Made by a program: the position numbers and the translations under genes. From Thermosipho melanesiensis BI429 (GTDB taxonomy: Bacteria > Thermotogota > Thermotogae > Thermotogales > Fervidobacteriaceae): DNA of 64,000 bases. The notes beneath the pieces are model-generated. The model did not search any database. It was not told the DNA's origin and saw only the letters and a program-made list of their open reading frames with translations. Location of the stretch: assembly GCF_000016905.1 (NCBI RefSeq), contig NC_009616.1:1612001-1676000 (forward strand), read 5' to 3'. Below, one piece after another: positions 8,346 through 54,510 of the stretch (position 1 is the first letter of the stretch; every line of letters begins with the position of its first letter).

Positions 8346-9017
8346 TTGAGAAAGCTGACACTTACAGGAAAAAATGTGGAAGAAATTTTAACAATATTTG
8401 AGGAAGATATGAATATAAAAAAAGGAGAATATGATTATTTGGTTATTGATAAAGGTTCAAGTGGTTTTTTAGGTTTTTTGTCTCGTGATGCGGTAGTTGA
8501 AGTTACGATAAAGAAAGAATACTACGAAAGAAAATTGAAAGAGTTTTTGGAAAATGTGGTAAGATGTTTTGATGAAGGAATAAGTGTAGAGGTGTTTTCA
8601 AAGAATAATAGGGTTTTTATTGCAAAGATAAAAGGAGAGGGTATCGGGAAAATAATTGGAAAACACGGAAAAGGTTTAGGTGCATTGCAGCATATTGCTA
8701 CAATTTTTCTAAATAGATTGTCTGATATAAAAATTACTGTGATTATAGACGCGGGAGACTATAGGGAAAAAAGAAAGGAATTGATAAAAAATATTGTTGT
8801 AAATGCCGTTGAAAAGTTGAGAAATGGTGCAAAAAAGATAGAGTTGGATCCCATGTTTTCTTTTGAAAGAAGGTTAGTACATGAATTTTTAAAAAGATAT
8901 CCAGATGTTTTTTCATATTCCGAAGGAGTTGAGCCGTATAGATATGTGGTAATTGAAAGGAGGGGAAAGAATGATAGTTTCCAAACCAGAAAGAGTAGAA
9001 CCTATAATAATAGATGA
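8346..9017 (+). CDS. khpB: RNA-binding protein Jag/KhpB
   Basis: About 223 residues in the order Jag-N (KGSSGFLGFLSRDAVVEV), KH type II (GEGIGKIIGKHGKGLGALQHI) and R3H (SFERRLVHEFLKRYPDVFSYSEG, with Tyr-Arg-Tyr after it), the KhpB architecture next to yidC. An in-frame GTG at 8337 overlaps the yidC stop, but AAGGGGTGA (8332-8340) is better spaced for the TTG at 8346, which I use. Its 3' end overlaps the cupin gene. KhpB binds small RNAs and mRNAs and influences cell-wall growth in Firmicutes; its role here is not known. Confidence 0.9.
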   Translation: MRKLTLTGKNVEEILTIFEEDMNIKKGEYDYLVIDKGSSGFLGFLSRDAVVEVTIKKEYYERKLKEFLENVVRCFDEGISVEVFSKNNRVFIAKIKGEGIGKIIGKHGKGLGALQHIATIFLNRLSDIKITVIIDAGDYREKRKELIKNIVVNAVEKLRNGAKKIELDPMFSFERRLVHEFLKRYPDVFSYSEGVEPYRYVVIERRGKNDSFQTRKSRTYNNR

Positions 9018-9312
9018 AGGAAAAATTGAAAAAAGGATTTTAATTGGTTCAAAAGATGGAGCCGAAAGATTTGTAATGAGATTGTTTAAATTACAACCTG
9101 GTGCTAACACACCATATCATACCCATGATTGGGAGCATGAGATATTTGTTGTGAGGGGAAAGATACAAGCGGTATCGAAAGATAAGAAGATAGTTGCAGA
9201 AGAGGGAAGTTTTATTTTTGTTAAGCCCAATGAAGAACATCAATTTGTCAATATAGGGGATGTTGATGCAGAATTTATTTGTGTGATACCGTATATACCA
9301 AACAATGAATGA
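8971..9312 (+). CDS. Single-domain cupin protein (TM1459-like)
   Basis: 113 residues with both cupin motifs: GANTPYHTHDWEHEIFVVRGK (metal ligands His, His, Glu) and later PNEEHQF (fourth ligand His). I recall the sequence as close to T. maritima TM1459, a small metal-binding cupin that also sits beside jag and yidC. The catalytic role is not settled. AAAGGAGGGG ends just before ATG 8971; an in-frame TTG at 8953 falls before that site and is rejected. It overlaps the K+ channel gene by 8 bases. Confidence 0.9.
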   Translation: MIVSKPERVEPIIIDEGKIEKRILIGSKDGAERFVMRLFKLQPGANTPYHTHDWEHEIFVVRGKIQAVSKDKKIVAEEGSFIFVKPNEEHQFVNIGDVDAEFICVIPYIPNNE

Positions 9313-41098: not shown

Positions 41099-41404
41099 AT
41101 GGACTCATTATGGAAAGCAAGAAAGAGAATAAGAGAAAGAAGACCATTAATAGTTGAAGAATATGGCAAAAATGGTTATATAATTATATTTTTGTCAGCA
41201 AAAAATTATACTAAAAAACATATTTTAGTAGATAAGTATTGCATAATTGAAGAAAATGAAGTTTGTAATTTTTTAAATAAAGATTCTTTTTTATTTGAAT
41301 ATAAGGGAGAATTTTTGTTTTATATTCCAAAACAAATATTGGAGAGGTATTTCCATTTATGTGGTTTATGCAAAATAAGTATAGATGAATTTTTAAAGAG
41401 GTGA
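41099..41404 (+). CDS. Unknown protein at the head of the Csm/SAVED-Lon operon
   Basis: 101 residues from the ATG at 41099. The same frame is open back to 41030 and reads IGFAYNLKEFSPEFNN before that ATG. A second frame from an ATG at 40996 (MKILFDEQIELKDNYKFQ) would join it with one indel near 41050. So the real N-terminus may be longer and the gene may carry a frameshift. Ends ...YFHLCGLCKISIDEFLKR. No family recognised. It overlaps the sigma-like gene's upstream region, so it is part of the same transcript. It could be a further regulator of the trio that follows. Confidence 0.55.
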   Translation: MDSLWKARKRIRERRPLIVEEYGKNGYIIIFLSAKNYTKKHILVDKYCIIEENEVCNFLNKDSFLFEYKGEFLFYIPKQILERYFHLCGLCKISIDEFLKR

Positions 41405-41412
41405 TGTTTATT

Positions 41413-42078
41413 GTGAAAAAGACGTTAAGAGAATTATTAAAGGAATACCTTGAAAAAAATGTTGTAAACAGAGAGTTGTTTGAAAATGTAAAGGGAATTG
41501 TGTCAAGTGTTATGAATACAAATCCAGGATATAGAGATATACTTATAGGAATTTTTGGAAACAGTTCGTCTGCTATTAATGAACTGACCAATGAAGTTTT
41601 TATTAGATTAAAAAAGAAAAAGAATATTTTGATTAATAAAACAGGGGATAATTTAGAAGGGTATTTATATATGATTGTAAAAAACTATATAATTGATATT
41701 TTGAGAAAAACCCGTGTTAATGATTCTTTAAATGATGAGAATGGATCTAATGTTGAAAAGATTGAATATATCCGAGCCGAAGAACACCATTTTAAACCAG
41801 AATGGGAAATTGTTGCTGAAACATTTGTTGAAGAATTAAAGAAATTAAAAGCTGAAAATCTTTGTTATTATTTATACAAAGTAATGTATTCTGAGGAAAT
41901 ATTATTTGAAGAAAAATCTAGAGATGCAAAATACAAGATAGTTCAAAGAACTAAAGAGAGTTTGAGAGAGCTAGTCGTTGAAAATGGATTAAATGACAAA
42001 GAATTAACATTGGCAATAAGAATTTATATGTCAGAAATCTGCGAAAAAATTCGTAATATCAGTAGAAAGAAAAATTAG
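41413..42078 (+). CDS. ECF sigma-factor-like protein (CalpS-like)
   Basis: 221 residues. The region about 55-105 fits sigma region 2: ELTNEVFIRLKKKKN, then LEGYLYMIVKNYIIDILRKTR, the same layout as 'EVFLRL...WLYRIARNLAIDYLRR' in ECF sigma factors. The C-terminal half is helical and may be a divergent region 4. I choose GTG 41413 because GAGGTGAT (41398-41405) is spaced for it; GTG 41401 and ATG 41404 fall on that site. With the next two genes it matches the CalpS-CalpT-CalpL order described for a type III CRISPR protease pathway, where CalpS is released on protease activation. Confidence 0.7.
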   Translation: MKKTLRELLKEYLEKNVVNRELFENVKGIVSSVMNTNPGYRDILIGIFGNSSSAINELTNEVFIRLKKKKNILINKTGDNLEGYLYMIVKNYIIDILRKTRVNDSLNDENGSNVEKIEYIRAEEHHFKPEWEIVAETFVEELKKLKAENLCYYLYKVMYSEEILFEEKSRDAKYKIVQRTKESLRELVVENGLNDKELTLAIRIYMSEICEKIRNISRKKN

Positions 42079-42096
42079 AAATTTAGGGGGTTAACT

Positions 42097-42867
42097 ATGA
42101 GATTCTTGGAGAACGAACTGAATATGTATAAAAAATTTCTTGGAGAAAAATTTAATATTGAATCGTTGAAAAAAATAAATGGTTCAAAACTAAACCTTGG
42201 GGATATATTTGTAATATATACTCCAAGCTTTCCTATATATGGAATTGTAATAGATAAGAGTGAAGATTTAAATAAATGCTTGTATTTAACCTCTGAGCTT
42301 TTCTTAGCTAGTGCAGAGGCTATTAGAATAAAAATAAATCATTTTGCTAATGAAGTAGCATTAACTCATATTGTATTCTATATCTCCGATGATTTTGCAT
42401 GGAATTATTGCGAAGTAATCGGAAAATTTGAAGATATTAAAGCGATAGAAGAAAACTTTGAAATATTAAATGATGAAGTTTATGTTGGTCCAAGAAAAGA
42501 ATTTTTCGAACTCGAAACAGAAAAGTTAGTCCCACTCTATGATTTGTTCTTTAAAAATGTTGAAGATGAAATCTCAGAAAATGAGAAGATTATAACTATT
42601 GATGTTCCAAAACATTTAAGAGAAACAGAAGTAGAGCTGTTAGCAGCTGAAACAAAAGGTGTTAGAGGTAATAATTTTGTTGGGATAATAAAAGAGAAGT
42701 CATTATTTATTTATCCAAAAGATGAGTTAATAGGAAAACATGGAATTGTTAAATTCAAAGGTGAAATAATTTACACTGGTGTTATTTCTGAAACATTAGT
42801 TATTGAAAACACGGAAGGTTTAGTTATTCAAAACATTGAAAAAGATTTGATAATAGAGGTGATTTAA
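42097..42867 (+). CDS. MazF-like SH3-barrel protein, candidate protease substrate (CalpT-like)
   Basis: 256 residues. The N-terminal half has a MazF/SH3-barrel feel: KLNLGDIFVIYTPSFPIYGI, then IVIDKSEDL and a later beta-rich stretch. The C-terminal half (IITIDVPKHLRETEVELLAA onward) is beta-rich and unassigned. In the published pathway CalpT binds the sigma factor and is cut by the SAVED-Lon protease. The role here is inferred from position between a sigma-like gene and a SAVED-Lon gene. No toxin activity should be assumed. TTAGGGGGTT precedes the ATG; the stop overlaps the next start. Confidence 0.6.
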   Translation: MRFLENELNMYKKFLGEKFNIESLKKINGSKLNLGDIFVIYTPSFPIYGIVIDKSEDLNKCLYLTSELFLASAEAIRIKINHFANEVALTHIVFYISDDFAWNYCEVIGKFEDIKAIEENFEILNDEVYVGPRKEFFELETEKLVPLYDLFFKNVEDEISENEKIITIDVPKHLRETEVELLAAETKGVRGNNFVGIIKEKSLFIYPKDELIGKHGIVKFKGEIIYTGVISETLVIENTEGLVIQNIEKDLIIEVI

Positions 42868-44300
42868 TGTTTGGTAATTTGTTGAAAAATGATCCAGACT
42901 CCTTTATTGAACTTTTAAATTCTGATCAAATTCATTTAGATGAGGCAATAAAATCATACTTGAAGAATAAGGATTTTAAAGCCAAAGAAAGAATTTTTTA
43001 TGAAATTGTTAAAAAAATGTATTTGAAAAAGGTAAAGAATATTAGTGAAGAATTGCTATCAAAATTCTTTGATGGTAATATCGAACTCGTATTTGATTTA
43101 TTAAAAAATGGTTATGTGGAAGCAAAATTTCCAATAGTTAAAGAAGAATATGGAAAAATTGCGCGAGTTATGGTTATTAAGTCTGAAAATTCCTTTTCAA
43201 ATGTCAAATTAAATAAATTGAGAGTAATCGAAAATGTTGTAGGACATAGATTAGCAGTAATTTTTGATTCAAAATTTGTAGGTAATTCATTCATGTTAGC
43301 AACAGCGTTAGCAGCTTTAACTTCTAAAATACCTATTAATCTTGCGTTTTCGGGAGAAATTGATGAGGAAGGTGTAATTAAAAAGAATTTAGATGGATTT
43401 TCTATTAAAGAAAGAGTTTGTTCGGAGAATAACTTGAAATTAATAGGTGCTTTTGACGTATCGAATGTATTTGAGCTTAAAGAATTTTTTGAAGAAGAGA
43501 ATTTCCACATTCCTGTATTGATGTTTTTTAGAAAGGAAGAAGAAGAATATATAAATTTTTCATATGAGAAACTTTTTAAAAGTGTCTCAAAAAAATACCC
43601 AGTTAGATTTGCAGAATTATTTGAAAAAGTATATGATGTCAAGAAATTCTTTGTAACTAATGAACTTTCTTCCTTGGAAAAATGGAAAAAAGCTTTAAAA
43701 GAAGCAAAAGCATTTTTGTTAAAGATTATTTCAAATGGAGGAATTCCACATGTTGCGATAGTTGGTCCATCGGCAATGGCTATGGCTTTGGGTATAGCTA
43801 TTGGTCTTCAAAATCCTTTAGTAATATACCACAAGCAAGATGAGTACTATCCTGTTATTGATTTAACAGATAATCTAAGAAAAATTAAAAACATAAAGGA
43901 TAGTTATGAATATTTAAAATATACAACTTTTGATGAGGGGAAAGATTGTGCTTATGTTATTTATTTAGCATCTCACAATCCATTTAGTTCAGTGATAAAG
44001 TTTTTGGAGAACAATTCTTTAGATTCAAAGATTATTTTAATTGAGCCAATTGAAAATAAAGGAAATTTGAGTATAGATACATGGGGGAAAATAGTCTCAG
44101 AATTAATGTCCATTACTCAAAATGTTTTGTATGATAATTACTGTGAAAATGTTTTTTTCTTTTTGAGTTGTCCTGTTGCTATTGCTTTGGGATTTGGGAT
44201 GGCTTTTGGAGATTTTGCCAAAGGTGGTATATTTCACTACAACAAAGCTGATGATTCTTATATTGAAGTTTTTAAAATTGAAAGGATTAGGGGGGATTAG
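42867..44300 (+). CDS. Lon protease-SAVED fusion activated by cyclic nucleotide (CalpL-like)
   Basis: 477 residues. The first part (about 100-230) resembles the Lon protease fold: VGHRLAVIFDSKFVGNSFML then LATALAALTSKIPINLAFSG and GFSIKERV. Ser141 in GNSF and Lys181 in SIKERV are 40 residues apart, as expected for the Ser-Lys dyad (41 apart in CalpL as I recall it). The second half is SAVED-like: HVAIVGPSAMAMALGIAIGL, PLVIYHKQDEYYPVIDL and a late FFFLSCPVAIALGFGM. SAVED domains sense cyclic oligoadenylate made by Cas10. ATG overlaps the previous stop; AGAGGTGA is the ribosome site. No membrane segment is needed for this role; whether one exists was not resolved. Confidence 0.82.
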   Translation: MFGNLLKNDPDSFIELLNSDQIHLDEAIKSYLKNKDFKAKERIFYEIVKKMYLKKVKNISEELLSKFFDGNIELVFDLLKNGYVEAKFPIVKEEYGKIARVMVIKSENSFSNVKLNKLRVIENVVGHRLAVIFDSKFVGNSFMLATALAALTSKIPINLAFSGEIDEEGVIKKNLDGFSIKERVCSENNLKLIGAFDVSNVFELKEFFEEENFHIPVLMFFRKEEEEYINFSYEKLFKSVSKKYPVRFAELFEKVYDVKKFFVTNELSSLEKWKKALKEAKAFLLKIISNGGIPHVAIVGPSAMAMALGIAIGLQNPLVIYHKQDEYYPVIDLTDNLRKIKNIKDSYEYLKYTTFDEGKDCAYVIYLASHNPFSSVIKFLENNSLDSKIILIEPIENKGNLSIDTWGKIVSELMSITQNVLYDNYCENVFFFLSCPVAIALGFGMAFGDFAKGGIFHYNKADDSYIEVFKIERIRGD

Positions 44301-44301
44301 G

Positions 44302-45708
44302 TTGAAAGTTTTATTTGCTATTGTTGGAAATTTAAAAACCTTTAGAGAAAAGAAATACAGATTGAATCTTGAAGATCAACATTCAGAACTTATTTGCGAC
44401 TCGTCGTTACAGCTACTTTCGGAATATTACAATGTAGATAAAACAGTTATTTTTTTGCCAGATACTCTGTATACAACATGTGATATTAATAAGATCCCAT
44501 CATCATATGATGAACTTACTAAGCTCCTAGCTGAAGAATATGACAAAAAAATAAGAAAAAAACTAAAAATTAATAATTTTGAGATTGTCATAGTGCCGGG
44601 GATTGGTACTTATAAATTAGGTGACGGGAATTTAGTTTTTGACGGAGAAATAAAAGATTTATACAATTTTTCTTTGTATAAATTATATAAACTTTTGTTA
44701 GAAAAAGAATTTTTGAATGGTGAAAAAGTAGAGTTTATTTTTGATATTTCTACTGGGTTAAATTATCACCAAAGTGTAATCTCTAGTGTTTTAAATGATT
44801 TATTAAAGTTACTTGCATATTTAAAGGATACAAGCTTAACAATAGTTAATTCTGAGCCAATTACTGATTTAAAGGAAGTATTAAATGTTTATATTATTGA
44901 CCAAAAGAAAATATTTCCAGGAATAGAAATTCAAAAAATTAAAAGACATAAAATACTTGAAGTATTTCCTTATTTATCAAATGAGGAAAAAAGATATTAT
45001 GGTCTGAAATTTATGAAAAATCTTGAACAAATTATTCTGAACAAAAGTGGAAATAAAAAAATTATGGAATTCTTTAATATGGTATTGTATTTTCTAAATT
45101 CACTTGTATATGGATTGCCGTTGGTTCTTTTGTATTTTAACAAAAAGTTAAAATCGAACGAAATTATTGAAAAAAGCGTCAAGTTTTTTTTAGAAGCAAT
45201 TGAAATTGAGAACAATCATGTATTTAGAAAATTAAAATTTGGAGAATTTTTTAAATACGTTGTTTTTGCAGAATTGTTTAAAGAATATTTTAATAACGTA
45301 ATAGATGATTATAATACTGATAAAATTCCCTTTGAGATATTAGAAGAAACATCAGAAAAAGTATGGAAAGTAAAAGAGCCTAGTAGTGATTTGAATGTTA
45401 ATGCATTTATTTCTTTATCGATAAAAAAGGAATTATACGAAATTAAAAACAGTTTCTTGGAAAATATTGGTGAAGGACAGGAAGTGGTTTTTACGAAAGG
45501 CCCAAATAAAGGAACAGATACTCAAAAATTTAATAATGCGTCAAACAAATACGATAAGACAGTAAATCATGATCCAAGAAGAAACTTTTTAGCTCATTCT
45601 GGATTGTCTTCAGGTAGTTTTAAATTAAAAAAGGAGAATGACCATTTATATATTAGTGCAATAGAAGACAAAATAAAAAAATTTTTAGGAATACTTTTAA
45701 AAAGTTAG
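44302..45708 (+). CDS. csx1: Csx1-type CARF-HEPN ribonuclease
   Basis: 468 residues from TTG 44302, with AGGGGGGATTAG upstream. An earlier in-frame start at 44176 would run inside the SAVED-Lon gene and has no ribosome site. The N-terminal CARF domain shows KVLFAIVGNLKTFREKKYRL, VIVPGIGTYKL and FIFDISTGLNYHQSVI. The C-terminal HEPN has DPRRNFLAHSG: Arg427 and His432 form the Rx4H catalytic motif. Csx1 degrades RNA when bound to cyclic oligoadenylate. It directly follows SAVED-Lon and precedes csm1, so two different effectors share one transcript with the Cas10 that activates them. Confidence 0.9.
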   Translation: MKVLFAIVGNLKTFREKKYRLNLEDQHSELICDSSLQLLSEYYNVDKTVIFLPDTLYTTCDINKIPSSYDELTKLLAEEYDKKIRKKLKINNFEIVIVPGIGTYKLGDGNLVFDGEIKDLYNFSLYKLYKLLLEKEFLNGEKVEFIFDISTGLNYHQSVISSVLNDLLKLLAYLKDTSLTIVNSEPITDLKEVLNVYIIDQKKIFPGIEIQKIKRHKILEVFPYLSNEEKRYYGLKFMKNLEQIILNKSGNKKIMEFFNMVLYFLNSLVYGLPLVLLYFNKKLKSNEIIEKSVKFFLEAIEIENNHVFRKLKFGEFFKYVVFAELFKEYFNNVIDDYNTDKIPFEILEETSEKVWKVKEPSSDLNVNAFISLSIKKELYEIKNSFLENIGEGQEVVFTKGPNKGTDTQKFNNASNKYDKTVNHDPRRNFLAHSGLSSGSFKLKKENDHLYISAIEDKIKKFLGILLKS

Positions 45709-45720
45709 GGGGCGAGATAG

Positions 45721-47994
45721 GTGATAAATCTTTCAGTTGAGAAAGTATTTCTGGCTGGTATTTTTCATGATATTGGTAAGTTTTATATAAGAGCAAACTT
45801 TGGTGATTTAAAGAAGAATATATACGAAGAATATAAATATTTTATTGAAGGTGATAACAAATATGGTCCACGACATCAAGAGTGGGGGGCATATTTTTAC
45901 AAAAATTCTAACCTTCCTTTTAAAGACGAAATTGAAGGAGCTATATTGAATCATCATAAACCAAATAGTGTATTATCTAAATTAATAAGTGTTGCAGATC
46001 ATATCTCTGCAACTGAAAGAGAAGGAGAACATCCAGAAGATAAAGTAAAAAACATGAAATCTATGCTTTCAATGGTTTCATTTTCAAATGATCAGAAAAA
46101 AGGAAAATATAAAAAAGTTTCTAAATTATCTGAAAAATTTGATTTACTTGAAAAAGAGGATGAAAATGTAGAAGAAACGTATAAAAATCTTTGGAGAGAA
46201 TTTGAGAAGGTTATTAATAGTATTCCAAGAAACAAAAATCCAAAAATTTCGTTCCCAATATTTGAAAAAATATATTACATTCTTAAAGAATATACATCAA
46301 ACATTCCTTCAGCATTTTTTTACAATGAACCAGACATATCTCTGTTTTCTCACCTTAGCACTACTGCAGGAATTGCAGTAGCCATTTTTAAACAATTTGA
46401 AGAGGAAATTAAATTAGGAAATATCAAAATTTTAGAAAATATTGATTCAAAAAATTACGATGAAAAAATATTAGGAATAGTCAAAGGTGATATTTCAGGT
46501 ATTCAAGACTTTCTATATAACATTTCCCAAGAAAGGGCTGTAAAAAAATTAAGAGGAAGATCTTTCTATATTACTTATCTTCTGGAGATTGTTGCAAAAT
46601 ATATCATTGAAAATGAAGGATTATCTATAAGCAATATTTTATTCAACGGCGGAGGACATTTCTATCTAATTGTACCAGCAAAAACAATCGATAAATTGGA
46701 AAAGTATCAAAAATATATAGATGAAGTTATGTATAAAGCTCATGGTATAGGATTAAATATAAATATTGCTGGTGAAAAAATCGCACCTAAAGAGTTAAAT
46801 AGTGAAATATACAAGCGAGTTTCGCAGTTGGTTGAAAGAAAAAAATATACAAAGTTATACAGTTTAATTTCTTATGATTTTCACAAAATTTTTGAATCTA
46901 AAAATTTATCTGAAGATTCATGTCCATATTGTAGAAGAAAAATGAAAGATGATGAATGTACTTTCTGTGAATCTTTTACAGTAATAGGTGATAGATTATC
47001 AAAAAGAAAAGCATTTAAATTAAATAAAACAGAAAAAATCCCAGAAAAAATTAATACTTACGAAGATGTTTTTAAAATGTTTGGTTATGAAGTCGAGTTT
47101 GAGGAAGGACCCTTTAGCTTTTTGATAGATAAAAGTGGAAATGTTGATTTATCAAGATATATGTTTTACACAAAATCTGCAAATTACATCTCAAAAAAAG
47201 AAAATAATGAAATATCTGATTTAGAAACCATTGCTAAAAATTCAAATGGAATGGAAAAGTGGGGGGTGTTAAGAGGAGACGTTGATAATTTGGGAAGAAT
47301 TTTTAAAGAGGGATTAGGAAAAGAGGCTTCTATATCAAAGACTGCAACATTATCACAGGAGATAGAAATATTTTTTGGAAAATTTTTGGAAGATATAGTT
47401 TCAAATGAATTTTCTAATTGTACTGTAATTTATTCGGGTGGAGACGATTTCTTTATTATTGGTCCTTGGAGTGATCTTCCAAATCTTGCTGAAAATATTC
47501 AAAAAGAATTTAAAAGATATAGTGGGGATAATGAATGTATTTCAATATCAATGGGAATTGGTATTTCTCCTGCAAAGAAATACCCTGTATACAGGGTGGC
47601 AAAACTTGCCGGAGAATATTTAGAAAAGGCAAAAGAGTATGAAAGAAAGGGCATTGAAAAAAGTGCTTTAGGTTTTTTGGGAGATTTTATCGGTTGGGAA
47701 GAATTTGAAGAATATAAATATTTTAAAAATAAGTTGACAGATTTAATTAATGAAAAAATAACCAAAAGGATTCTTCATGTTTTAAGAAGATATTACCAAG
47801 AATATGATGAAAACGAGGGGACAAATAAAGTTTGGAAATTATATTATTACTTTGCTCAGTTATCGGATAGATATAGTAAATCAAAAGATAAAATATTAAA
47901 ATTTTTAAGCGAAATTCTAAAAGATGATAACAAACTATACAATAAAATTTATTCATTAACATATTGGGTGGAATATGAATTAAAGGAGGGATAG
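45721..47994 (+). CDS. csm1: Type III-A Cas10 (Csm1) with HD nuclease and GGDD cyclase
   Basis: 757 residues. HD domain at the N-terminus: His16-Asp17 in GIFHDIGKF and later NHHKP. First palm GIVKGDISGIQDFLYNI; zinc ribbon CPYCRRKMKDDECTFC near residue 400; second palm GVLRGDVDNLGRIFKEG and YSGGDDFFIIG, with GGDD at residues 573-576, then SMGIGISPAKKYPV. All active motifs for ssDNA cleavage and cyclic-oligoadenylate synthesis are present. GTG start with GGGGCGAG upstream, 12 bases after csx1. Confidence 0.97.
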   Translation: MINLSVEKVFLAGIFHDIGKFYIRANFGDLKKNIYEEYKYFIEGDNKYGPRHQEWGAYFYKNSNLPFKDEIEGAILNHHKPNSVLSKLISVADHISATEREGEHPEDKVKNMKSMLSMVSFSNDQKKGKYKKVSKLSEKFDLLEKEDENVEETYKNLWREFEKVINSIPRNKNPKISFPIFEKIYYILKEYTSNIPSAFFYNEPDISLFSHLSTTAGIAVAIFKQFEEEIKLGNIKILENIDSKNYDEKILGIVKGDISGIQDFLYNISQERAVKKLRGRSFYITYLLEIVAKYIIENEGLSISNILFNGGGHFYLIVPAKTIDKLEKYQKYIDEVMYKAHGIGLNINIAGEKIAPKELNSEIYKRVSQLVERKKYTKLYSLISYDFHKIFESKNLSEDSCPYCRRKMKDDECTFCESFTVIGDRLSKRKAFKLNKTEKIPEKINTYEDVFKMFGYEVEFEEGPFSFLIDKSGNVDLSRYMFYTKSANYISKKENNEISDLETIAKNSNGMEKWGVLRGDVDNLGRIFKEGLGKEASISKTATLSQEIEIFFGKFLEDIVSNEFSNCTVIYSGGDDFFIIGPWSDLPNLAENIQKEFKRYSGDNECISISMGIGISPAKKYPVYRVAKLAGEYLEKAKEYERKGIEKSALGFLGDFIGWEEFEEYKYFKNKLTDLINEKITKRILHVLRRYYQEYDENEGTNKVWKLYYYFAQLSDRYSKSKDKILKFLSEILKDDNKLYNKIYSLTYWVEYELKEG

Positions 47995-47995
47995 T

Positions 47996-48436
47996 ATGAG
48001 GAATGACAATTTTTCGAGACAAAGAAATTCTCAAAAAGAATTTATTAATCAAGAATTAGCTGAAAAAATTCTCAATCCAGATAGTGATCCAGATGGGGAA
48101 AATTTATTCGAATACTCAAAAGAAATTTCAAAAGAAATAAAAGTATTGTCTTCCACACAACTTAGAAAGTATTACGACGAAGTTAAAAAAATCCCAAATA
48201 ACAAAGATTATAAATATCATCTTAAAAGGTTTATAGCAGTGTTTTTGTATAGTGTTAATAAAATAAAAAATAAAAAAAATAAAGAAGTTGTAGAAAAATT
48301 TTCCGAATCAATAAAAAATTTAGCTCTAGTTGCTTCGAATAATGATGAAAGATACTTTAAAAGATTTAGAGACTTTTTTGAAGCATTAGTAGCTTACCAT
48401 ACATATTACAAAAACAACAATAATAATAAAGAATAA
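47996..48436 (+). CDS. csm2: Type III-A small subunit Csm2
   Basis: 146 residues, basic and helical, with STQLRKYYDEVKKI, FIAVFLYSVNKIKN and FKRFRDFFEALVAYHTYYK, the Csm2 pattern. It fills the inner filament of the Csm complex. GGAGGGA precedes the ATG; it begins two bases after csm1. Confidence 0.92.
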   Translation: MRNDNFSRQRNSQKEFINQELAEKILNPDSDPDGENLFEYSKEISKEIKVLSSTQLRKYYDEVKKIPNNKDYKYHLKRFIAVFLYSVNKIKNKKNKEVVEKFSESIKNLALVASNNDERYFKRFRDFFEALVAYHTYYKNNNNNKE

Positions 48437-48452
48437 AAAAGGGGGTAAGAAC

Positions 48453-49262
48453 ATGGTTAATTTAGAATTTAAAGGAAAAATAATTGTTAAAGCTGATATA
48501 CATGTTGTTACTGGGCTTCAAATTGGCAAAGAAAATTCAATGGAAATTGGGGGTATTGATAATCCAGTTATTAAGGATAGTTTAGGAAAACCTTATATAC
48601 CTGGTTCATCTTTAAAAGGGAAACTAAGAACACTAATGGAATATTTTCATGGAAAAATCAAAAATGATGTTTTAGTTGTTGCAAAAGGTGGAGAAAATCA
48701 AATAAGAATTCACCAATGTGATGAAAAAGATTGTCCAGTTTGTAATTTATTTGGCAGAAATCACGGAAAACATAGGTATGCAAGCAATCCAGATGTAGAA
48801 GTAGAATTTAAAAATATAATGCCTACAAGGTTATTTGTCAGAGATGCGCTATTGGATGAAAATAGTATAACAGAAGAAATGAAAAAAAATTTAGACAACG
48901 AATTTACTGAAGTCAAACCTGAAAATACTCTTGATAGGATTACTTCAGCAGCAAATCCGAGGTTTAACGAAAGAGTTCCTGCTGGTGCTATTTTTAAATC
49001 TGAGTTTGTAATTAATGTATATGATGATGATAACGAAAAATACTTGAGAGAACTTTTAACTGCATTAAGCTTGCTTGAAGATGATTATTTAGGAGGGTCT
49101 GGTTCCAGGGGATATGGAAAGGTAAGATTTGAAAATATAAAGATAGTTTATAAAGGCAAAGGATATTACGATGGTTCAAATAAAGAATTACCTAAAAAAG
49201 AATTAGATGATCTTAATAACTGGGAGGAAAAAATTAAAGATTTTAAACTGAATGGGGATTGA
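48453..49262 (+). CDS. csm3: Type III-A backbone nuclease Csm3 (Cas7)
   Basis: 269 residues. VVTGLQIGKE, GGIDNPVIKDSLGKPYIPGS and SLKGKLRT are family landmarks; Asp36 in GGIDNPV is the target-RNA-cleaving aspartate. A CxxC segment (DEKDCPVCNLFGR) and GGSGSRGYGKV follow. GGGGGTAAG upstream of ATG 48453. Confidence 0.96.
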   Translation: MVNLEFKGKIIVKADIHVVTGLQIGKENSMEIGGIDNPVIKDSLGKPYIPGSSLKGKLRTLMEYFHGKIKNDVLVVAKGGENQIRIHQCDEKDCPVCNLFGRNHGKHRYASNPDVEVEFKNIMPTRLFVRDALLDENSITEEMKKNLDNEFTEVKPENTLDRITSAANPRFNERVPAGAIFKSEFVINVYDDDNEKYLRELLTALSLLEDDYLGGSGSRGYGKVRFENIKIVYKGKGYYDGSNKELPKKELDDLNNWEEKIKDFKLNGD

Positions 49263-49266
49263 TAGT

Positions 49267-50208
49267 ATGAAAAACTATAGAATAAGGTTAAAATTCAAAT
49301 CACCATTGCATGTTGGACAAGTTGATAAAGTTGAAACAGTTGTTTCTGATATCATCCATTCTGATACTATTTTTTCTGCAATTATCAATTCATACAATTT
49401 ATTATACGGGAAAGAAAAAACAAAAGAATTACTAAAGTTTATTCTAGAAAATGAAGATTCCATTTTAATTTCATCTGCTTTTTATTACTATAATGATATT
49501 TATTTTTATCCAAGACCGTTAGGATACAAGTTTGATCTGGATAAAAAATTCGATTTTAAAAAAGTAAAGAAAATAAAATTTGTAAGTGAAGAATACATAA
49601 CTGGAAAGGTAAAAACACCAATTATTATAAACGGTTTAGCAACAGATAATAAAGAGATAGAAAGATTATACTTTATCGAAGAAAGGCCAAGGATAACAGT
49701 TGATAGAATTACAAATGAAACAAATATTTTCTACGTTTCAGCTTTAAGATTTATAGAAAATAGTGGATTGTGGTTTTTCCTTTCCTTATCTGAAGAGATT
49801 GAAAGAGAAATATTTGCTGCCTTGAGGCTTTTAAGTGATGAAGGACTTGGTGGTGATAGAACACATGGCAATGGAAACTTTGATTTTGATGTTGAGAAAG
49901 TAGATTTTGGACGATTTCAAGGAGACAATTGTTTACTTTTATCTGTATATTATCCAAAAAATCAAAATGAGATTGATAGTACGTTAAGTTATAAATTATA
50001 TGAACGATCTGGATATGTGTATTCACAATATTCAATGTCGTACAAACAACCACTTGTTAGACTTTTTGCTGAAGGTAGCGTTTTTAAAAATAAAGTTACA
50101 GGGGATGTTTTAGACATTACACCAATAGGTTTTGAATACCATAAAGTATTTAAATTTGCACGTGCCTATACAATTCCTATAAAAAAGGAGGCACAATATG
50201 ATATATGA
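49267..50208 (+). CDS. csm4: Type III-A RAMP protein Csm4
   Basis: 313 residues. RIRLKFKSPLHVGQVDKVE, then SDTIFSAIINSYNLLYG at the start and EGLGGDRTHGNGNFDF (glycine-rich loop) are Csm4 features; it grips the crRNA handle next to Csm1. ATG 49267 is chosen because GGGGATTG lies upstream; the ATG at 49252 is part of that site. Overlaps csm5. Confidence 0.92.
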   Translation: MKNYRIRLKFKSPLHVGQVDKVETVVSDIIHSDTIFSAIINSYNLLYGKEKTKELLKFILENEDSILISSAFYYYNDIYFYPRPLGYKFDLDKKFDFKKVKKIKFVSEEYITGKVKTPIIINGLATDNKEIERLYFIEERPRITVDRITNETNIFYVSALRFIENSGLWFFLSLSEEIEREIFAALRLLSDEGLGGDRTHGNGNFDFDVEKVDFGRFQGDNCLLLSVYYPKNQNEIDSTLSYKLYERSGYVYSQYSMSYKQPLVRLFAEGSVFKNKVTGDVLDITPIGFEYHKVFKFARAYTIPIKKEAQYDI

Positions 50209-51259
50209 AGTTGAAGTTTTAACCCCCTTAGCAATAAATAATGGAAATGAAATTAAAAGCTTTGAAATTATACGTGAGGGTGGAAAATCGTATATTTTAG
50301 ATTTCAACAAACTTTTTGAAAATGAAAATTTTGTTGAATTAGTTGTTAATTCTCCACAAATTCTATCAGATGAAGATTCATTAAAAAAAGCTTTTAAATT
50401 TTTGAAACTTGATTATAAGAAGTATACTAAGATGGTTTTAAACTATCCTTTAGACAAAAGGTATAACATTAAGGAATTTATTAAAACAATTGGGAAACCC
50501 TTTTTACCAGGTTCATCCTTAAAAGGTGCCATAAGAACAGCATTGATTAGAGGTAATAATTTTGAAGAACATTACAAAAAAAGCCTTAATTTTCTCAATA
50601 AAAGTAAAGGTAGAAATATAAATAAAAAACATTTCGATGATTTTGTTGAAAAAAAATTATTTGGTGATTCATATGAATCTCCTTTTAGGTTTTTAAGGAT
50701 TTCTGATGGTTATGTGGTTTCAAATCATGATTTAAAAATTGTTCCCATTGAAGTTTTAAATTTAAAGAAAAAAAGGCGAGTGCTTCCATATATTTATACA
50801 GAAGCATTAAATCTCCACACAAAGATAAGAGGAAATATAGATTTTGGATTTTTAGAAGCAATAAAAAATAGTGAATTTAAAGATAATTTCAAAAACTTGC
50901 AAATTGTCGAAGATTTTGTCAAAAAGGTGAATAATGGTGTGAAAAGGTACATAAATGATGAAATTGATTTGTTGAAAGGTAATTTAAAAGAATTAGAGAC
51001 TTTTTATTCAACTTTATTAAAAAGAATGAACAATTTGAAAGATAATCAATTCATTGTACAAATAGGTTTTTCAACGGGTTATTATTCTAAAACAGTTGTT
51101 GGAAAACTTGATTCAAATCAAATAAAGTTAATGAAAATAAAAAGGTTATTATACAAAAAAGTTAAACCTGAATTTTTCCCAGTAACTAGAAGAGTAGTAA
51201 GACGAAATGGAGTGATGGAACCATTAGGATGGATTTTGGTGACGTTAAAAGAGGAGTGA
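50198..51259 (+). CDS. csm5: Type III-A RAMP protein Csm5
   Basis: 353 residues. EVEVLTPLAINNGNEIKSFE at the start, KPFLPGSSLKGAIRTALI and FQIGFSTGYYSKTV-like QIGFSTGYYSKTVVGKL near residue 285 fit Csm5, which caps the crRNA 3' end. AAAAAAGGAGG precedes ATG 50198. Its stop overlaps the next gene's start. Confidence 0.92.
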   Translation: MIYEVEVLTPLAINNGNEIKSFEIIREGGKSYILDFNKLFENENFVELVVNSPQILSDEDSLKKAFKFLKLDYKKYTKMVLNYPLDKRYNIKEFIKTIGKPFLPGSSLKGAIRTALIRGNNFEEHYKKSLNFLNKSKGRNINKKHFDDFVEKKLFGDSYESPFRFLRISDGYVVSNHDLKIVPIEVLNLKKKRRVLPYIYTEALNLHTKIRGNIDFGFLEAIKNSEFKDNFKNLQIVEDFVKKVNNGVKRYINDEIDLLKGNLKELETFYSTLLKRMNNLKDNQFIVQIGFSTGYYSKTVVGKLDSNQIKLMKIKRLLYKKVKPEFFPVTRRVVRRNGVMEPLGWILVTLKEE

Positions 51260-51846
51260 AAATTTATATACATTTTGCGTTTGATTATCCTTTGTTTTTG
51301 GTGAAAGATTATAAATTAGAACTAATGAAAAATTTTGAACAATTTGGTTTGAAAAATTACAACTTTTCTGGTTTTTTATCAAAGAAATTTTTCAAAGCTA
51401 AAGATGGTTATTATTTAAAAAATAATGGTCTTTTAGTTTTGAAGACGTTTAATGAAAAAAATTTACCTGAAGTTGTTTATAAACTTTCGAAAAGTACCTT
51501 TTTTGGGATTATCCCAAAAAAAGTTGAGGTAAAGCCTATTGAATTTTTTCAAGAAGGAATTTTATTAGGTAGTGTTTTAGGTTCTGAAATTGATTTGAAT
51601 CTTTTGAGTGAGAAGATTAGAAAGAATGCCATTGAGAAATATACGAATGTTTATAATCAAATGCCTAAAAAAAATTCATTAATAGTTATTTTTCAAGAAA
51701 ATCAAAAAATTAAACTTTTTGGTTCACAGGAGTTAATTTATTTGATAAATGTTTTAGGTATCTTTTGCAAAAATGGTTATGAAGGTTTTATCTTAGATGA
51801 CAAAAAATATTGGGGGTATTCTTTTGAGATTGAGAGTAAAATTTAA
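51256..51846 (+). CDS. Unknown protein between csm5 and cas6
   Basis: 196 residues from GTG 51256 (VKIYIHFAFDYPLFLVKDYK...). I do not recognise a family. The start has RAMP-like beta-alpha character, but the usual C-terminal glycine-rich loop is missing. AGAGGAG touches the GTG, so an in-frame ATT at 51262 is a possible alternative start. Because it overlaps csm5 on one side and cas6 on the other, it must be co-expressed with the Csm complex. A divergent RAMP subunit, crRNA-processing partner or anti-plasmid factor are all open. Confidence 0.6.
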   Translation: MKIYIHFAFDYPLFLVKDYKLELMKNFEQFGLKNYNFSGFLSKKFFKAKDGYYLKNNGLLVLKTFNEKNLPEVVYKLSKSTFFGIIPKKVEVKPIEFFQEGILLGSVLGSEIDLNLLSEKIRKNAIEKYTNVYNQMPKKNSLIVIFQENQKIKLFGSQELIYLINVLGIFCKNGYEGFILDDKKYWGYSFEIESKI

Positions 51847-52555
51847 CTTTGATAGGTTAAATTTGCCTATTCATTATAATCATATTTTACATGCAACTAT
51901 TTTAAATATGATTAATAATGAAGAATTTAGAAAATTTATTCATGATAGAGGTTATAAATTTGAAAAAAGGGTTTTTAAATTGTATACTTTTTCAAGATTA
52001 ATTGGAAGATTTGAAATTGATACGGAGATTAAGGAAATTAATTTCTTTGATAATGTATATTTGTATATTTCATCATATGATGACAATTTTTGTTATTATA
52101 TTATGGAAAAACTTTTAACATTTGAAAATATTAGAATGGGTAAAAATATTTTGAAAGTAGAAAAGATTGAAACAATAAACTTTATGCCTACTGATACCTT
52201 AAAAGTAGTAACCAGATCACCAGTTACTGTTTACTCAACTTACATTGATGAAACAGGAAAGAAAAAAACTCTTTTTTACCATCCAGATGATTTTAAATTT
52301 AAAGAGATAGTGGAGAAAAACATTATAAAGAAATATAGAGCATTACATAATAGAGAACCACAAGGACGCATTGAAGTAAAGCATGTTGGGAAGTCCCCTA
52401 AATTTGTTTTGGTATTTTACAAAGGATTTAAAATTAAAGGCTGGATGACAGCATTTGATTTAATTGGTGATCCTGAACTTGTAAAGATAGCTTATGAAAC
52501 AGGTCTTGGGAGTAAAAACTCCCAAGGTTTTGGTTTTATAGAACAAATTAAGTGA
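51824..52555 (+). CDS. cas6: CRISPR pre-crRNA endoribonuclease Cas6
   Basis: 243 residues from TTG 51824, with GGGGGT at 51812-51817. LRVKFNFDRLNLPIHYNHIL at the start, VVTRSPVTVY in the middle and KGWMTAFDLIGDPELVKIAY followed by GLGSKNSQGFGF at the end are Cas6 hallmarks. His in the N-terminal IHYNH segment is a candidate catalytic residue. It is the only Cas6 in the window and would process transcripts of both arrays for both Cmr and Csm complexes. Overlaps the unknown gene before it by 23 bases. Confidence 0.93.
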   Translation: MRLRVKFNFDRLNLPIHYNHILHATILNMINNEEFRKFIHDRGYKFEKRVFKLYTFSRLIGRFEIDTEIKEINFFDNVYLYISSYDDNFCYYIMEKLLTFENIRMGKNILKVEKIETINFMPTDTLKVVTRSPVTVYSTYIDETGKKKTLFYHPDDFKFKEIVEKNIIKKYRALHNREPQGRIEVKHVGKSPKFVLVFYKGFKIKGWMTAFDLIGDPELVKIAYETGLGSKNSQGFGFIEQIK

Positions 52556-52565
52556 AGGTGAGATT

Positions 52566-53003
52566 ATGTATATATATGTTGATGGGTCATATTATCAAGA
52601 ACTGAGTATTGCAGGGTATGCTTTTTGTATTGTTGATGAGGATAAGGAGATTTTTACCAAGAGTGGTGCAATAATTTTAAAAAATGCCAATTCAGTTGTA
52701 GCAGAATTAGTAGCTGTGATAAATGCACTAAGGTATTGTGAAAGAAATAACATTACTAACGTGACAATTGTACATGATTATAACGAAATACCAATGTTTG
52801 CAACAGCGTATAGAAAAACTAAAAATAGAAAGATTAATTCATATATATATGAATTAAAAAGGTTATATAACAAGTTAGATGTATCTTTTAAAAAGGTAAA
52901 GGCACATAAAAATGATGAGTTTAACAATTTAGTTGATAAGTTATCTAGAGAAAGTGTTGAGAAATTTTTAGTTAAACAATTAAAGAGAAAATTTTCACGT
53001 TAA
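52566..53003 (+). CDS. Ribonuclease H-like protein at the end of the Csm operon
   Basis: 145 residues with the RNase HI carboxylates in order: Asp6 (YVDGSYY), Glu47 (VVAELVAV), Asp71 (IVHDYNEI) and Asp124 (NNLVDKLSRES), so it should be catalytically competent. GGTGAG precedes the ATG; it starts 10 bases after cas6, clearly within the operon. RNase H cuts RNA in RNA-DNA hybrids. A role with a type III system, for example on R-loops or on RNA-DNA products during spacer capture, is inference; a housekeeping role is possible too. Confidence 0.88.
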   Translation: MYIYVDGSYYQELSIAGYAFCIVDEDKEIFTKSGAIILKNANSVVAELVAVINALRYCERNNITNVTIVHDYNEIPMFATAYRKTKNRKINSYIYELKRLYNKLDVSFKKVKAHKNDEFNNLVDKLSRESVEKFLVKQLKRKFSR

Positions 53004-54116: not shown

Positions 54117-54510
54117 GAATGAAGAATTTGATGTTGCAATTTGCCTAATAACGATCCAATAGAATATGATATTGCAATACTTCAAAATGTCTATGATTCA
54201 TTAAAATCAGGTGGTAAGTTCCTTCTAACCGTTTTAAGTGTACTAGAAAGAATTAAGGAAACCACGAGTGAAGATATAATGAAAGGTTCCTTTGTTCCAC
54301 ATGCAATGACTTTTTTTGAAGAAATTGAAACTCCTAATGGAAAAAGTTTCCTATAAAAGAACGCATTTACGTTCCCACTGAACTTTATTTAATGTTCTTG
54401 GTATCTGGGGAGGTATTGCTGGAAGATGGAGTAAAAGAAAAGTAGATTTTGATGATATTGAAGTAATGGTAATTGCTGAAAAACCCTTTGTCAAAAACAA
54501 AGTGTATTGA
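54117..54510 (+). pseudogene. SAM-dependent methyltransferase remnant
   Basis: Fragments in different frames read DVAICL, then YDIAILQNVYDSLKSGGKFLL (the motif after the SAM site in class I methyltransferases), and finally NVLGIWGGIAGRWSKRKVDF with DIEVMVIAEKP before a stop. The N-terminal SAM-binding part is gone and at least two frame changes are needed. Confidence 0.65.

Follow-up and report, generated by a model that had tools for sequence, protein, structure and literature searches.

The gene at 52566-53003 of the window (the 64,000-nucleotide stretch of Thermosipho melanesiensis BI429 DNA that we analysed) encodes a genuine RNase HI. We consider it most probable, at roughly 0.65, that this is an ordinary enzyme of a dispersed subfamily and accompanies the csm-cas6 operon as a neighbour or passenger; on this reading it is neither part of the Csm complex nor an accessory that the operon needs. 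The gene has the look of a newcomer in the CRISPR cluster, not a fixed component.

An RNase HI gene directly behind cas6

The operon upstream of the RNase H gene is a genuine type III-A operon, in which csx1, csm1 to csm5, a Cas6-like ORF and cas6 follow one another on the plus strand.

44308-45708, + strand: csx1, CARF-HEPN ribonuclease (profile matches, including PADLOC)
45721-51259, + strand: csm1 to csm5, type III-A effector complex (profile matches)
51229-51846, + strand: second Cas6-like ORF, between csm5 and cas6 (PADLOC Cas6, 2.2e-15)
51821-52555, + strand: cas6 (TIGR01877, 3.9e-33; PF01881, 1.5e-32)
52501-52530, + strand: terminator-like hairpin in the last codons of cas6, 5' of the RNase H gene (fold z -3.4)
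52556-52565, + strand: 10-base gap between cas6 and the RNase H gene, AGGTGAGATT, Shine-Dalgarno-like
52566-53003, + strand: RNase HI-like gene, subfamily S (145 aa; D6, E47, D71, H114, D124)

The original prediction described an RNase HI-like enzyme with four carboxylates, Asp6, Glu47, Asp71 and Asp124, encoded in a type III operon 10 bases behind cas6. The enzyme assignment was borne out. The ORF starts with ATG, and its product matches the Pfam RNase_H profile (PF00075) at 1.1e-12 and 48.7 bits, above the curated cut-off of 25.8. All four carboxylates are present and, together with the loop residue His114, are kept in an alignment of close relatives and also across a diverse set that includes viral RNases H. 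His114 lies 10 residues N-terminal of D124, and we take it to be the counterpart of the catalytic-loop His of E. coli RNase HI. The AlphaFold model (pLDDT 93.5) has the strand and helix order of RNase H1 and no additional domain, and its best PDB structure matches are RNases H1 (Halobacterium, Sulfolobus, LC11 and E. coli), with TM-scores of about 0.70-0.79. The Pfam match, the D-E-D-D set with its loop His and the predicted fold together confirm that the gene encodes a real RNase HI. Judging from the intact catalytic set and the predicted fold, the enzyme is probably active on RNA-DNA hybrids.

Compared with stand-alone RNases HI/H1 (PF00075, without a hybrid-binding domain), the window protein shares the fold, the motif order, the D-E-D-D residues and the loop His. 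It differs in scoring only 33 bits against the NCBIfam ribonuclease HI equivalog, far under the cut-off of 160, in lacking in its model the helical handle between the third Asp and the loop His, and in adjoining cas6. Because it falls so far below the equivalog cut-off while exceeding that of Pfam, it is a divergent member of the family. Its sole PDB sequence match (3.3e-10) is the RNase H-like domain of Desulfitobacterium hafniense DSY1790 (PDB 2kq2), with which it has the HDY...KVKAH pattern in common; the two are ~30% identical, and whole-fold superposition on the NMR model is poor. Pfam finds the RNase H domain only, no CARF/SAVED sensor or known Cas fold was found in the 145-aa protein, and none of the PADLOC models matches it.

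The distance to cas6 was given correctly, as cas6 ends at 52555 and the ORF starts at 52566 on the same strand. Membership of the operon stands with a caveat: the shared strand, the 10-bp gap and the Shine-Dalgarno sequence favour it, and the terminator-like hairpin at the end of cas6 qualifies it. Because of the 10-bp spacing, co-transcription with csm-cas6 appears likely. The hairpin has 13 pairs and a T-rich tail and is encoded by Gly-rich C-terminal codons. Its z of -3.4 was obtained against shuffles, and terminator-like sites are no more numerous in the region than in shuffles; no comparable fold was found in the same part of the cas6 of a related genome (G012), and we rest no conclusion on the hairpin. 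The base composition of the RNase H gene matches that of the csm genes and so gives no sign of recent foreign origin.

Several features of the surroundings are recorded here. The Cas6-like ORF at 51229-51846 has no Pfam or NCBIfam match and occupies the same position in many Thermotogota csm operons. Upstream of csx1, at 41401-44300, lie sigma factor, CRISPR-T and SAVED-Lon genes, a CalpS/CalpT/CalpL-like set (PADLOC: CRISPR-T 8e-65, CRISPR-Lon 4e-171). The stretch downstream of the RNase H gene is gene-poor, with a short ORF at 54141-54356 that by eye resembles a methyltransferase fragment. No integrase or transposase directly adjoining the RNase H gene in the window was recognised by eye.

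The search for another RNase HI or HII that the original prediction had proposed found both. T. melanesiensis has a second PF00075 RNase H1, in a 251-aa frame (C1:751959-752348), and an RNase HII (C1:1895135-1895656). The genome therefore encodes RNases H besides the window gene, and the cell is not reliant on that gene alone for RNase H activity.

Distribution and neighbourhoods of subfamily S

A profile built from close relatives was searched in 103 Thermotogota genomes and returned ten matches of 197-251 bits, the next best reaching 82 bits. By these scores and by the tree, in which they form one group, the ten members from nine genomes are a discrete Thermotogota subfamily (S), so far known only from this phylum. 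The sole close match in an extra scan of genome contigs (L060) is, judged by length and content, the same contig as G081:C63 and added no new member.

We counted a gene as cas-linked when it lay within 15 kb of cas10, cas6 or cas1, a limit chosen after the data had been seen. Two of the ten S members fall within it, the window gene and one in G083, and eight lie outside. The latter occupy varied neighbourhoods in G004, G012 (two copies), G013, G014, G019, G078 and G081; no cas genes were recognised within ~10 kb of them, as far as the contigs reach, and for one copy (G012:C24) cas1 and csm1 are 16-23 kb away. The G083 member (L051:11534-11971) is flanked by a cmr operon and by the cas6 gene belonging to a type I-B operon, and is not the sister of the window member in the tree. 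In this protein the fourth catalytic Asp is replaced by Asn. The survey thus ran against a type III linkage of the subfamily, since only two members are near cas genes, and these are found in unrelated arrangements. The original prediction had named two findings that would count against it: that the gene is the only RNase HI of its genome, which is not the case, and that its relatives are unlinked to CRISPR, which largely applies (8/10).

Counts near cas genes were 2/10 for S, 7/9 for a second family (D, described below) and 2/91 for other RNases H, giving Fisher p values against the latter of 0.048 for S and 8e-8 for D, which serve as guides only, as the rows are related and the limit is post hoc. 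With the window gene excluded, S is not enriched in the vicinity of cas genes when set against other RNases H (1/9 vs 2/91, p 0.25).

The orthologous operons point the same way. None of the four nearest, whose cas6 genes are 61-81% identical (G018 L114, G017 L115, G019 L113 and G012 L039), carries an RNase H behind cas6 on the operon strand; they end at cas6. Likewise, neither the S nor the D profile matched in 18 sampled csm stretches, some of them cut by contig ends. Together these results rule out an S-type RNase H as a conserved feature of csm operons and make the placement lineage-specific among the genomes compared. With two of ten members near cas genes and the nearest orthologous operons without S, no conserved linkage of the subfamily to csm/cmr loci was found.

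Near the csm genes of G012 (L039) we noted a helicase-TBP-RNase H fusion, which we judged a weak parallel as it lies on the opposite strand, beyond a transporter gene. This frame (L039:5848-8037), the one whose domains were scanned, joins a helicase of SF1 type to a TBP-like (TOTE) domain and an RNase H domain; long frames of similar appearance recur in the phylum (L027, L028 and L078). Separately, frames of ~490-530 aa in G014 and G091 (L040:7389-8849 and L087) contain an RNase H domain, and their C-terminal part looks, by eye, like an RnlA-type toxin.

Outside the phylum, strict thresholds gave no S or D match in 391 Clostridia genomes, a set without an internal positive control. Viral contigs held no D members and only distant relatives of S. 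S-like RNases H with 25-35% identity occur on Firmicutes plasmids and in Twort-like phages, and in the tree S has two viral contigs (L104/L107) as its nearest outgroup, a placement with moderate support and a long branch. The distant relatives show the wider enzyme type to be carried by mobile elements.

A CRISPR-linked RNase HI family

Family D, distantly related to S, comprises nine RNases HI from six genomes, all of one bacterial family. In the tree it is separate from S (support 100/99), which rules out a single CRISPR-linked family made up of both.

L043:7121-7615 and 8792-9235: family D RNases HI
L046:9657-10160: family D RNase HI
L049:8732-9406: family D RNase HI
L050:11154-11624: family D RNase HI
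L055:8261-9295: family D RNase HI
L056:9085-10119: family D RNase HI

Seven of the nine lie within 15 kb of cas genes, and two long members are unlinked. In G010 and G011, the D gene is one of the genes of a type III-B operon, flanked by those for Csx1 (CARF-HEPN) and a CARF-CYTH-HD protein. Two copies precede cas1 in G004, the nearer one by 60 bp, and this Cas1 is 61-69% identical to Cas1s adjoining the CRISPR-associated Argonaute and AEP prim-pol, the latter described in PMC8211822. A further copy stands behind a decaying csm operon in G001, and a longer version lies beside CRISPR array-like repeats in G003 and G005. Some members have altered catalytic residues, such as the last Asp changed to His in L050. 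Family D thus shows a strong association with type III/CRISPR loci in Thermotogota and is a better lead than S for a CRISPR role, and its linkage keeps alive the general idea of RNases HI in type III loci. We found no mention of such a linkage in the literature searched.

Role and origin of the window gene

Known type III accessory effectors (Csx1/Csm6, Can1-2, NucC and the CalpL pathway) are represented among the neighbours of the window gene by Csx1 and the CalpL/T/S-like set. Not every type III accessory has a CARF/SAVED-type or Cas fold. Lacking a CARF or SAVED sensor domain, the window RNase HI should not be responsive to cyclic oligoadenylate. No RNase HI is named among type III effectors in the accessible part of PMC11229360, and none is described as a type III accessory in the literature searched, of which the accessory survey DOI 10.1080/15476286.2018.1483685 was not a part. 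The 2025 classification mentions an RNase H fold solely for the DUF3800 nuclease of class 2 loci, which occurs in some VI-F and V-A2 loci (PMC12669027). That nuclease shares with the window protein the RNase H fold and a CRISPR neighbour but belongs to another family and to class 2 systems.

The possibility that the window protein is a working type III accessory appears doubtful to us. Such an enzyme would be made with the Csm complex and would clear hybrid RNA at transcribed targets or in spacer acquisition, either removing R-loops behind RNA polymerase, so that single-stranded DNA is exposed to the Cas10 HD nuclease, or processing RNA-DNA acquisition intermediates. The original prediction had suggested that it could act on R-loops at transcribed targets or on crRNA-DNA hybrids. 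The 10-bp gap and Shine-Dalgarno sequence would be expected of a true operon member, and they speak against a passenger, as do the native-like composition, the second S member adjoining a cas6 (G083) and the varied type III, cas1 and array settings of family D, with their low p value from non-independent rows. However, eight of the ten S members are unlinked, the close orthologous operons have no RNase H, PADLOC has no matching model, and the linkage of D, two members of which are themselves unlinked, cannot be transferred to S as the two are separate groups in the tree. This explanation would also imply several recruitments of RNases HI to type III loci within Thermotogota. A dedicated role of the window gene in type III immunity is possible, with little comparative support in S.

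Still less probable is a phage- or plasmid-type RNase H brought by a mobile element and serving neither CRISPR nor general hybrid removal. The viral outgroup, the similar plasmid and phage enzymes and the different site of the S member in each genome are consistent with it, but the outgroup placement is only moderately supported on a long branch, no integrase or transposase was recognised by eye directly beside the gene, and the composition is native-like.

We thus favour an ordinary RNase HI next to the operon. An S-type gene would have arrived downstream of cas6 in the lineage of T. melanesiensis, presumably by insertion, and would probably be translated from the type III-A transcript via its own Shine-Dalgarno sequence. 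The most likely activity of the enzyme is a general one, degradation by two-metal catalysis of the RNA in RNA-DNA hybrids such as R-loops and leftover primers, in parallel with the other RNase H1 and the RNase HII of the genome.

The window gene itself is of little consequence, an ordinary enzyme in an unusual place. A more tentative proposal, which we regard as unlikely, is that RNases HI were recruited more than once to Thermotogota type III loci, D repeatedly and S at least here, and act on RNA-DNA hybrids formed in transcription-dependent targeting or in prim-pol/Argonaute-linked spacer acquisition. Should the pattern of family D prove functional, type III CRISPR biology would gain a step of hybrid-specific RNA removal, with a bearing on Cas10 access to transcribed targets and on the resolution of RNA-DNA intermediates of CRISPR-associated prim-pols.
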